Below are positions 10,589 through 13,870 of a stretch of DNA of 41,179 nt, piece by piece. A program made the position numbers and the translations under genes. The number at the start of each line of letters is the position of its first letter. Position 1 is the first letter of the stretch. The DNA comes from an uncultured bacterium. GTDB lineage: Bacteria > Omnitrophota > Gorgyraeia > Ghiorseimicrobiales > Ghiorseimicrobiaceae. The stretch lies in contig CAJVXN010000017.1 in NCBI GenBank assembly GCA_913009335.1, positions 1 through 41,179 on the forward strand, in the 5' to 3' direction. Below the pieces are notes generated by a model that saw only the letters and a list, made by a program, of their open reading frames with translations, was not told the origin of the DNA and did no database searches.

Positions 10589-11395
10589 ATGTTTAATGTC
10601 ATTAAAAAAGAAATTTTAAATCAATCCGTAAAACGGATGGTCATCACGGCTCCTGATATAGCTAATAAAGTATTGCCCGGTCAGTTTGTAGTTATTCGAA
10701 TCAATGAGGAAGGAGAGCGTATTCCTCTAACCGTTGCAAGTTGCAATAAAAAGAAGGGAATAATTAGTATAATCTTTCAGGAGGTAGGATTTACGACTCG
10801 CAAATTAGGGAGATTAAAAGAAGGGGATGCTATTTTAGATATTTTGGGGCCGCTTGGACATGCGGCTGAAATTAAAAAGTATGGCAAAGTTGTTTGTGTT
10901 GCCGGTGGTGTTGGAGTAGCTGAGGTTATCCCTGTAGCGGATGCTTTACAAAGAGCGCACAATAAGGTAATAGGTATAATTGGCGCGCGTACCAAGGAAC
11001 TTATAATTTTAGAGAAGGAAATGCGTCTATTTTCTGATGAATTATATATTGCCACCAATGACGGAAGTTACGGGCAGGAGGGGTTGGTTACAGATGTCCT
11101 AAGGAGTATCCTTGAACAGAAAATAGATTTAGTCTATGCCATAGGTCCGGTTCCGATGATGGAGGCAGTAGCAAATCTTACCCGTGATTATAAGATAAAA
11201 ACAATAGTTTCACTTAATCCGGTTATGGTTGACGGAACAGGTATGTGTGGTTCCTGTAGGGTTTCTGTGGGGGGGGAAACAAAGTTTTGTTGTGTTGATG
11301 GTCCGGATTTTGACGGACACTCGGTGGATTTTAGAGAATTAGCCGAAAGGTTAAAATTGTTTAATAATCAAGAAAGCGAGATGTCAGCCAGATGA
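10589..11395 (+). CDS. sulfide dehydrogenase/NfnA-like FAD/NAD-binding subunit with C-terminal [2Fe-2S] motif
   Basis: PGQFVVIRINEEGERIPLTVA; DILGPLGHAAEI; CVAGGVGVAEVIPVADAL; NPVMVDGTGMCGSCRVSVGGETKFCCVDGPDFDGHSVDF. Confidence 0.9.
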   Translation: MFNVIKKEILNQSVKRMVITAPDIANKVLPGQFVVIRINEEGERIPLTVASCNKKKGIISIIFQEVGFTTRKLGRLKEGDAILDILGPLGHAAEIKKYGKVVCVAGGVGVAEVIPVADALQRAHNKVIGIIGARTKELIILEKEMRLFSDELYIATNDGSYGQEGLVTDVLRSILEQKIDLVYAIGPVPMMEAVANLTRDYKIKTIVSLNPVMVDGTGMCGSCRVSVGGETKFCCVDGPDFDGHSVDFRELAERLKLFNNQESEMSAR

Positions 11396-12315
11396 GTATA
11401 CTAATTTTAATTTTAGTGTTAGGGGCAATTGGACTGGTGATTTATATACTTTTTGGGCCTATGGCTAATGCCGCATCTCTTGATATGCCTGAGCAGGTAG
11501 CGGGTGATTCAATTGCGAGTAATCGGGATGCAGAGGCAGCGGCTGCGCTACAGAAAGAACTCGATATATTAAAGTTAGACGCAGAGAATAATAAAACGCA
11601 AATTCAGAGCTTGACTACTGAGTTAGAGGCAGAGAAGGCAAGGAAAGATGAATTAATTAAGCAAGAAGCCGAAAGCGACAAAGATGGAAGTTCTTTAGAG
11701 GATTTAAGGTTAGAGCTTGCTGATGTAAGATCTGGATTAATTGAAAAAGACAGGCAGTTAGATGAGGCGCATAACGCGAATTTGAATCTTAAAAAAGATG
11801 TTGAGGTTTATCATCACCAATTAAATGACTTAAAGGCGGAACATAGCAAAATGGCTGAAGATTTTAAACAATCAAAAGAAGAGCATCGGGAGCTGGAAGC
11901 TAGAATTCAAGATCAAAGCCATAAGCTAGAGGGCGATGGTTTGGATTCTGATAGCCAAAGCCATAAGCTAGAGGGCGATGGTTTGGCAACCGATAGCCAA
12001 AGCCATAAGCCAGAGGGCGATGGTTTGGATTCTGATAGCCAAAGCCAGAATGACGTACAGTATACCCTATCTAAAGAATCAGAAAAGGATGAGTCGAGTT
12101 TTGATTTAAAACTTAAGGATGCCTCGCGCGTAGTTACTAGGCTTAATCCGATTGAAGAAGATAGAAAGAGTGATGTCGTTGATGAGGGCGTTGATGAATT
12201 AGTAGAGCAGGCAGATGAGCAAAATATACACCCAGAAGATGAGAAATCGGCACAGGAAGATTTAGGTAGAGATGGTCCGGAATCAGAAGATAAAAAAACC
12301 AACGCAGATACATAG
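11392..12315 (+). CDS. single-TM coiled-coil protein with internal 14-aa tandem repeats, function unknown
   Basis: N-terminal hydrophobic segment ILILILVLGAIGLVIYILFGP; Glu/Lys-rich coiled coil; SHKLEGDGLDSDSQ x3; start overlaps upstream stop (ATGA). Confidence 0.7.
   Translation: MSILILILVLGAIGLVIYILFGPMANAASLDMPEQVAGDSIASNRDAEAAAALQKELDILKLDAENNKTQIQSLTTELEAEKARKDELIKQEAESDKDGSSLEDLRLELADVRSGLIEKDRQLDEAHNANLNLKKDVEVYHHQLNDLKAEHSKMAEDFKQSKEEHRELEARIQDQSHKLEGDGLDSDSQSHKLEGDGLATDSQSHKPEGDGLDSDSQSQNDVQYTLSKESEKDESSFDLKLKDASRVVTRLNPIEEDRKSDVVDEGVDELVEQADEQNIHPEDEKSAQEDLGRDGPESEDKKTNADT
11914..12045 (+). repeat. 42-nt tandem repeat, 3 complete units plus partial, in-frame in the 11392 CDS
   Basis: Units begin with caaagcc at 11914, 11956, 11998, 12040; each encodes SHKxEGDGLxxDSQ. 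Confidence 0.95.
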
Positions 12316-12378
12316 GAAAAGAATAAGATTTGTAAGGGGTAATTTAAGGATGCGGTATTAAACTTTTCCTTTGGTAGT

Positions 12379-12412
12379 GGCTTTGGCTATCGGTTGCCAA
12401 ACCATCGCCCTC
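12379..12412 (-). repeat. perfect 34-nt inverted copy of tandem-repeat unit 2 in the intergenic region
   Basis: ggctttggctatcggttgccaaaccatcgccctc is the exact reverse complement of 11971-12004 (gagggcgatggtttggcaaccgatagccaaagcc). Confidence 0.95.
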
Positions 12413-12430
12413 AGGCTCATAGAAAGGTTA

Positions 12431-13870
12431 ATGATGGATTTTATATACGGGTTTTTTACAGATTTTATAATCAGAGATGTTTTAGATGTTGCGATTATTG
12501 CGGTATCTATTTATATGGCTTTGGTTTGGTTTGAAAAAGCAAGAGCCCGTTTTATGATGATTGGTTTATTTATTTTGGGTTTAATCTATTTTATTGCTCG
12601 TTTCTTTGGTTTGTATTTAACTACTATTATGTTCCAGGCTTTTTTTGCCGTATTTTTAATAATGTTGGTAATAATATTTCAGGATGAATTACGGCATTTC
12701 TTTGAGCGTGTAGCTTTATGGGGTTTGATTCGTAAAAAACGGCGATTTACATCGCTTAATCAAAATATTGAAATTTTGGCAAATACAATTGCTAATTTCT
12801 CACGTAAAAAAATTGGCGCTTTAATTGTTTTAAAGGGAAATGATCCTTTGGACCGTCATGTTGATGGAGGATTGCTTCTTGAAGGTGTTTTGAGTCAGAT
12901 TATGCTGGAGAATATTTTTAGTCCTCATGTCGCTACTCATGATGGCGCGATAATTATTGAGGAGGGGCGTATTGTTAAGGTGGGGTGTCATTTGCCTCTT
13001 TCGATAAATATTCAGAAGATTGGTCATTCCGGAACACGGCATGCAGCAGCTTTAGGTTTATCCGAGCGTACGGATAGTATAAGTCTTGTTGTTTCAGAAG
13101 AGACAGGTACGATATCCATTGCTGATGGCGATAGAATAAGGGTGGTAAAGGATATTGTCGGCTTGCGTCTGCGGCTGGAAGATTTTTACCGTAAGCGCTT
13201 TCCTCGACGTGGAAAATTTTTTGCTGATTTTCTGACAGGGCATATTTTAGAGAAGCTTATAGCGGTTATTCTTTCTTGCAGTTTATGGGTTGGGTTTGTT
13301 CAGAATCAAGAAGTGGTTCGCCGGGATTTTGTTGTCCCTATTGAGTATCGCAATCTTGCTTCGGATTGGATAATTGGGGAGCCTAAATCCAGAGAAGCAA
13401 CAGTTGCTTTAAGCGGGACAGAGAGGACCTTTTATCTTGCCAAGTCGGAAGAGGTTAAGATATCGTTAGATATGTCGCAAGTTAAAGAAGGGGATAATGA
13501 AATTTTCTTGGATAAGGATAGCCTGCGCAGGCCCTCAGGGCTTTCGGTCGTAAGTATTACGCCCCATAAAATTAGTCTTAGTGTTTATAAGATGCTTAAT
13601 TTTAATGTTCCTGTTGAGATTGAAACGTCTGGACGTGTTGCCTATGGCTTTGAGGTTAAGGAGATTAAGGTTATTCCCGAGAAGGTTTCTATTGTTGTTC
13701 CAAGTATATTACCGAGAGAGAAAATTAAAATTACGACAGAAGTAATTGATTTGCGGAAATTGAAAGAATCTAAAACTTTTACTCCGAAAATTATACTGCC
13801 TGCAGAGTTACGATTTTCGGAAGATAAAACCCCTCAGATAAAAGTATCGGTTATCGTAGAAAAGAAATAA
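12431..13870 (+). CDS. cdaA: membrane diadenylate cyclase (CdaA/DisA_N) fused to C-terminal YbbR/CdaR-like domains
   Basis: Three N-terminal TM helices; DGAIIIEEGRIVKVGCHLPLS; GTRHAAALGLSERTDSISLVVSEETGTISIA; then a further TM and YbbR-like repeats VVPIEYRNLASDWIIGEPKSREATVALSG and FNVPVEIETSGRVAYGFEVKEIKVIPEKVSI. Track start 12371 is a TTG inside the repeat; ATG at 12431 follows aaagg. Confidence 0.9.
   Translation: MMDFIYGFFTDFIIRDVLDVAIIAVSIYMALVWFEKARARFMMIGLFILGLIYFIARFFGLYLTTIMFQAFFAVFLIMLVIIFQDELRHFFERVALWGLIRKKRRFTSLNQNIEILANTIANFSRKKIGALIVLKGNDPLDRHVDGGLLLEGVLSQIMLENIFSPHVATHDGAIIIEEGRIVKVGCHLPLSINIQKIGHSGTRHAAALGLSERTDSISLVVSEETGTISIADGDRIRVVKDIVGLRLRLEDFYRKRFPRRGKFFADFLTGHILEKLIAVILSCSLWVGFVQNQEVVRRDFVVPIEYRNLASDWIIGEPKSREATVALSGTERTFYLAKSEEVKISLDMSQVKEGDNEIFLDKDSLRRPSGLSVVSITPHKISLSVYKMLNFNVPVEIETSGRVAYGFEVKEIKVIPEKVSIVVPSILPREKIKITTEVIDLRKLKESKTFTPKIILPAELRFSEDKTPQIKVSVIVEKK

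Follow-up and report, generated by a model that had tools for sequence, protein, structure and literature searches.

The window, a contig of 41,179 nucleotides from an Omnitrophota genome, carries a 42-nt sequence both in frame within a gene and, inverted, in the adjacent intergenic region. This arrangement raises the question of whether the sequence was duplicated locally, is kept for the peptide it encodes, or is a mobile element. The host CDS (11392..12315, + strand) encodes a poorly conserved coiled-coil protein with an N-terminal membrane segment and has no Pfam family. Within it, three units follow one another on the + strand: copy 1 (11922..11963), with the variant loop ATTCT, encodes KLEGDGLDSDSQSH in frame fwd2 and scores 59.6 bits with covariance model R1; copy 2 (11964..12005) has the genome consensus sequence, encodes KLEGDGLATDSQSH, and scores 65.6 bits; and copy 3 (12006..12047), again with loop ATTCT, encodes KPEGDGLDSDSQSQ and scores 62.4 bits. 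Directly before copy 1, CAAAGCCA (11914..11921, +; TRF array of 3.2 copies) repeats the 3′ end of the element and represents a partial copy or a residue of array expansion. Copy 4 (12378..12419, − strand; 59.6 bits) lies between the host CDS and cdaA and matches unit 2 perfectly over 34 nt and at 93% over 43 nt. An earlier note had described both the in-frame array and this perfect reverse complement of unit 2 beyond the stop codon, and both are confirmed. Its claim that the intergenic copy is specifically akin to unit 2 fails: the exact 34-mer recurs at seven other loci of the same genome, and therefore unit 2 and copy 4 simply both match the genome consensus. The conditions under which the note would have given up its mobile-repeat reading do not hold, since the 34-mer recurs and a weakly similar positional homologue before cdaA in genome G003 lacks the 14-aa repeats. 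In G001 the host gene is absent.

Copy 4 is located inside the leader of the cdaA-like diadenylate cyclase gene (12431..13870, +; CdaA_N, DAC, and YbbR domains), whose ATG is at 12431 or 12434. There it lies within the remnant of a leader motif, TTAAACTTTTCC..GGAAAAGTAATATTGACTTCCATTA..AGAAAGGTCAATG, that is also found upstream of further genes in the genome; in several of these cases the same element occupies the same place. The TTAAACTTTTCC portion occupies 12358..12369 (+), and AGAAAGG (12421..12427, +), at the end of the shared motif, is also the probable Shine-Dalgarno sequence of cdaA. The dispersed motif (window 12358-12430; loci L272-L278) contains two potential hairpins, AAACTTTTCC..GGAAAAGT and ATTGACTTCC..AGAAAGGTCAAT, and is found ahead of the start codons of genes that include accC and cdaA. 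The 42-nt element occupies the second loop in several motif copies, and L277 is empty; the motif is possibly a third mobile family, or else a regulon. Before two genes, reading frames pass through the element. The antisense element end and a flanking A form ATGGC.. at L014:1723, from which an ORF reads through the element into accC, and a TTG-start ORF at window position 12371 reads through the element into cdaA. Both are putative N-terminal extensions, read from the DNA.

Beyond the window, the repeat is widely dispersed. In its own 1.88-Mb genome, the pattern GGCGATGGTTTGGNNNNNGATAGCCAAAGCC matches 44 times when as many as 3 mismatches are allowed, at about 30 sites, singly or in arrays of 2-4 units. 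The reversed control pattern has 0 matches, and the number is thus far above what chance would give. Three pairs of insertion sites lie within 450 nt of each other (C7, C11, and C17) vs. 0.2 expected (p = 0.0016). Element copies therefore do cluster locally in this genome, a pattern suggestive of local hopping or of the use of a nearby template. Model R1 has matches in 73 of the 386 genomes of the class, in a patchy distribution. A scan of 85,462 species, one genome per species, with the pattern TGGTTTGGCNNCCNATNGCCAAAGCC yielded at least 80 loci from at least 43 assemblies (counted by accession prefix). Among the matches listed, 77 of 80 loci are titled Candidatus Omnitrophota or Omnitrophica, and the remaining three belong to two MAGs named 'bacterium' and one named 'Kerfeldbacteria'. 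The 42-nt repeat has spread through many Omnitrophota genomes; no description of such repeats in this phylum was found in the open-access literature, subscription journals being outside the search.

The unit follows the pattern YARGCC-N4-GGCNR TGGTTTGGC-N8-GCCAAAGCCA, with the ends YARG...GCCA, and folds into a 15-nt hairpin (columns 1-15) abutting a 27-nt hairpin (columns 16-42) that contains a bulged G and an 8-nt loop. Model R1 was built from 141 units. In alignment A1, 9 of 14 pairs are altered on both sides. Doubly changed cells number 85 vs. 25.7 in shuffles, with 0 of 500 shuffles as high, and the covariation signal disappears when partner columns are slid out of register. Hairpin 1 provides the best test of the fold because its columns lay outside the collection-scan pattern and were thus unfixed by the search. 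Its pair 1-15 occurs as U-A in 69 sequences and as C-G in 43, and its pair 5-12 as C-G in 102 and as U-A in 14; in the asd copy L166, pair 4-13 is flipped from G-C to C-G. The fold is retained, by way of different stems (TGGTGCGGC/GCCGCAGCCA, TTTCGC/GCGAAA), in divergent members from GC-rich genomes; their alignment is 92.9% paired (0 of 500 shuffles), a value that leans towards the model because the alignment was fitted to it. Wobble-type mismatches in the stems are G.U in 32 cases vs. C.A in 14 (p = 0.01), which hints that one folded strand is what counts. Genome G050 contains a sister type of 45 nt (15 codons), in which the same 27-nt hairpin is joined to a different 18-nt 5′ part. The G050 units (L246-L262) are near-identical, and one of them lies inside an ORF that, judged by eye, resembles DNA polymerase III delta′.

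Empty and filled versions of one gene, asd, display the exactness of insertion. An asd match was obtained in 98 of the 108 genomes that make up family f3 of the class, with states read directly in 30 loci and judged by alignment coordinates in the others. Five of the 98 are filled, all at the same position immediately preceding the catalytic NPNCST loop, and in one of these the first unit harbors another, which makes 28 extra residues. The empty protein sequence KDVKKH-KGIIANPNC corresponds to KKH-RPEGRGLASNSQSH-KGIIANPNC in filled genes, and the DNA changes from AAACA^CAAAGG to AAACA[42 nt]TAAGGG. The insertion is clean, adding 14 codons with 0 host codons lost and no target duplication. Both states occur in genus g166, where two genomes differ. 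Filled rows are scattered on the asd tree rather than forming one clade; several branches are weakly supported, and the well supported ones force at least 2 state changes. Some shared asd insertions may be old, or recombination, not renewed transposition, may have spread them. The AlphaFold model of the asd protein with the nested copy has a mean pLDDT of 53 (7 sequences), which is too low for use.

Insertion is equally precise when the target is the element itself. Eight nested copies were found, all at A30|T31 of the acceptor loop and in the same orientation, and excising 42 nt from them restores a normal acceptor loop. A TA target duplication was rejected, as the inner ends of the nested copies (CA, TT, and AT) differ from the flanking TA; about a dozen junctions underlie the statement that no target is duplicated. 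At insertion, Y alone may still be duplicated (1 nt), because unit position 1 and flank position +1 are correlated (odds ratio 8.9, p = 1.7e-4), a correlation that GC content may confound. The flank consensus, A^YAR, is a weak site whose signal falls mostly on the 3′ side of the insertion point rather than on the 5′ side. The same sequence is formed where the unit's own end joins its own start, and therefore tandem arrays are consistent with the same rule. The period is 42 nt in in-gene arrays and 43 in two intergenic arrays.

Among 127 distinct insertion sites, 75 lie within ORFs of at least 100 aa and 52 (41%) are not in an ORF. Each in-frame unit adds exactly 14 amino acids and leaves the reading frame intact. 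The hosts include asd, tyrS, topA, fumarate hydratase, dnaX, ispD, lysS, leuS, gmk (guanylate kinase), and uvrA. A single frame and orientation, encoding (K/R)PEGSGLASDSQSH, is used at 54 of the 75 ORF sites, and its peptide is hydrophilic (KPEGSGLASDSQSH; GRAVY -1.3 to -1.4). Four other open frames, on both strands, are also in use, including in essential enzymes, while the sixth frame contains a stop and is never used. The bias is strong (binomial p about 4e-22), with the five open frames taken as equally likely and some orthologous sites counted twice. In TyrS, the insert follows DLDDIK and precedes the MHPMEAKK segment; at this point the sequence of a solved homologue is shorter and unrelated. 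IspD carries four reverse-orientation units, or 56 residues, within a 66-residue stretch between residues 147 and 214 that corresponds to three residues in a solved homologue. Array length also varies: two paralogous kinases of the window's genome contain 1 and 4 units, and the orthologues L092 and L130 contain 1 and 2. Together with the dispersed and nested copies and the empty and filled asd genes, these arrays strongly support the earlier note's suggestion of a small palindromic mobile repeat, resembling those of Rickettsia, that inserted into coding sequence and was amplified in frame.

Thus, the repeat is very probably a non-autonomous Omnitrophota mobile element that folds as a single strand and is inserted precisely at A^YAR by an enzyme acting in trans, with selection leaving in-frame copies. 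A putative trans-acting enzyme would recognize the folded single strand and insert it at the weak A^YAR site without target-site duplication, using the element's own loop and own ends as further targets. Insertions within genes can survive because the unit is 14 codons long, its preferred frame is stop-free, and its peptide is hydrophilic. They would persist as short in-frame additions, worse frames and orientations being mostly purged by selection, and tandem arrays would grow and shrink in 42-nt steps. The dispersal, the fold, the exactness of insertion, the nesting, and the frame bias are observed directly, whereas movement in trans, recognition of a single strand, selection as the source of the frame bias, and a selfish nature are inferred from them. 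In the window, the three units of the host CDS and the opposite-orientation copy in the cdaA leader are best read as separate insertions.

Other explanations account for part of these observations. If the unit were a coding peptide repeat kept for protein function, serving as a linker or tag, and the copies between genes were debris, the dominance of one frame and the hydrophilic, conserved peptide shared by many proteins would follow. However, the large share of sites outside ORFs, the use of other frames and of both strands even in essential enzymes, and the unrelatedness of the hosts make this explanation very improbable, and conservation and compensatory changes track base pairs, not codons. 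The earlier note had also proposed that a local inverted duplication produces a 34-bp mRNA stem controlling cdaA translation. The stem does fold well in silico (-175 kcal/mol vs. -134 for shuffles), and the excess of copies less than 450 nt apart is in its favor. Its role as a control device is unsupported, as any two opposite copies of the family give such a stem, G003 has no copy upstream of cdaA, similar copies precede accC and other genes, and the 34-mer is the genome consensus. Control of cdaA by the stem is therefore highly improbable, and the stem is a by-product that exists because two opposite copies of one family are present.

The remaining alternatives concern how a mobile element would be moved. 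One version of the favored explanation names the enzyme: a REP-type element would be moved as a folded single strand by a RAYT, a Y1 transposase of the IS200/IS605 type. The bulged hairpin, the wobble bias, and the lack of duplication at nested and asd junctions would fit such a mechanism. Y1_Tnp genes are also common in the class (298 of 386 genomes, with 5 in the genome of the window), and all genomes with the strict pattern have Y1. However, Y1 is found in 62 of 73 element-positive vs. 236 of 313 negative genomes (p = 0.09), and without a clear association Y1_Tnp was rejected as a necessary factor. Eleven of the 73 positives have no Y1 match, including G050 (95% complete, 35 copies, many near-identical), although single gene absences are weak evidence because the genomes are MAGs. 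No element lies within about 2 kb of the four Y1 genes examined in the window's genome, and a unit pair about 2 kb from one Y1 gene in G005 is compatible with chance. The GTAG tag is missing from the 141-unit alignment, and the target signal is chiefly 3′ rather than 5′ of the insertion point. On this evidence, a RAYT is an unlikely mover, though one worth keeping in mind. Copy-and-paste of a structured RNA by a reverse transcriptase would fit the structure and the wobble bias, and a comparable route has been suggested for the GC clusters found in yeast mitochondria, which are likewise 42 nt long (PMC4478555). This route deserves very little credence, given that 13 of 15 element-rich genomes have no RVT_1 match.

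Set beside known systems, the element described here works like the RPEs of Rickettsia, with a different architecture. RPEs (Ogata et al., 2000, 2002) are about 150 bp long and end in CGTC (described in PMC10969869 and PMC3733652). Both are dispersed palindromic DNA found between genes and in frame in unrelated, often essential genes, with no dedicated transposase known and several families per lineage. In contrast, the Omnitrophota unit is 42 (or 45) nt long, has two adjacent hairpins, builds arrays both in tandem and by nesting, and belongs to a different phylum; the CGTC tag is at neither end of the 42-nt unit in the 141-unit alignment. REP/REPIN sequences of the GTAG superfamily, which are associated with RAYT, are hairpin repeats of 20-40 nt (PMC3733652). 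They share dispersed hairpins, an imperfect stem, sometimes intragenic location, and presumed single-strand mobilization. However, the 42-nt element has no GTAG tag, no RAYT gene flanked by it was found among the four Y1 genes examined in the window's genome, most of its known sites are in ORFs, and each unit has two hairpins. The GTAG and CGTC tags define two large REP superfamilies, and, as both are missing, the element is filed in neither. PARCEL repeats are protein-coding, have dyad symmetry, and are apparently mobilized within genomes, but they form 25-residue amphipathic tandem units in ORFs without assigned functions (PMC2996958), whereas the Omnitrophota units encode 14 or 15 residues and occur as single insertions in housekeeping enzymes.

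The element also resembles some organellar ones. The GC42 clusters of yeast mitochondria have AG repeats on their flanks, which resemble a target duplication (PMC4478555). Like the Omnitrophota element, GC42 and the fungal double-hairpin elements are mobile hairpins of about 42 nt with mergers and nesting, but they are organellar. In the Omnitrophota unit, two adjacent hairpins likewise make up the whole mobile unit; the likeness is one of architecture, and homology to the fungal elements is not expected. Paquin and colleagues are said to have described the double-hairpin elements of fungi in 2000. We know of no GC42 or fungal double-hairpin element in frame in an essential gene. The byp elements of Magnusiomyces mitochondria are hairpin insertions in essential genes that the ribosome skips. 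The 42-nt element shares their location within essential genes but is open in frame, and therefore bypass is not needed. A MITE moved by a DDE transposase was rejected on the basis of the missing duplication described above and of the unit ends, which are not inverted repeats of each other in the alignment of 141 units.

Protein-coding palindromic elements are best known from Rickettsia, and to our knowledge the mode of movement of RPEs has remained unexplained since 2000. The Omnitrophota element adds a second case, apparently unrelated, from a different phylum. It offers many genomes, matched empty and filled sites in the same enzyme, and two whole-codon unit lengths. Comparison can thus test the route of insertion, whether length was selected for frame, and how essential enzymes gain loops. 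It also serves as a warning that an odd short insertion in an Omnitrophota protein can stem from mobile DNA instead of adaptation. It is possible, though we lean towards doubt, that these repeats form a phylum-wide class of selfish elements whose 42/45-nt length, a multiple of three, and sequence have been shaped for tolerated insertion in essential genes. The mover of such elements would read the folded double hairpin, insert precisely at A^YAR, often in hairpin loops, and be neither a known RAYT nor a reverse transcriptase.

The asd gene also hosts insertions of other kinds. A second palindromic family, AACCCCGTTAGAAATTGG..GATATTTCTAACGGGGT, of about 54 nt and encoding the 18 aa NPVRNWFLRGSSDISNGV, stands in frame in the same asd loop at L167 and L168. 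Genome G421 contains 73 exact arm matches of this family, mostly in pairs 41 nt apart, and G421 and its sister genome G424 differ in its presence in asd. The asd genes L169 and L170 have another in-frame 14-aa insertion, SAGARTGYSAVAGY, at about residues 248-262, and L164 contains TCLPAGRQ; these two are possibly yet other insertion families.
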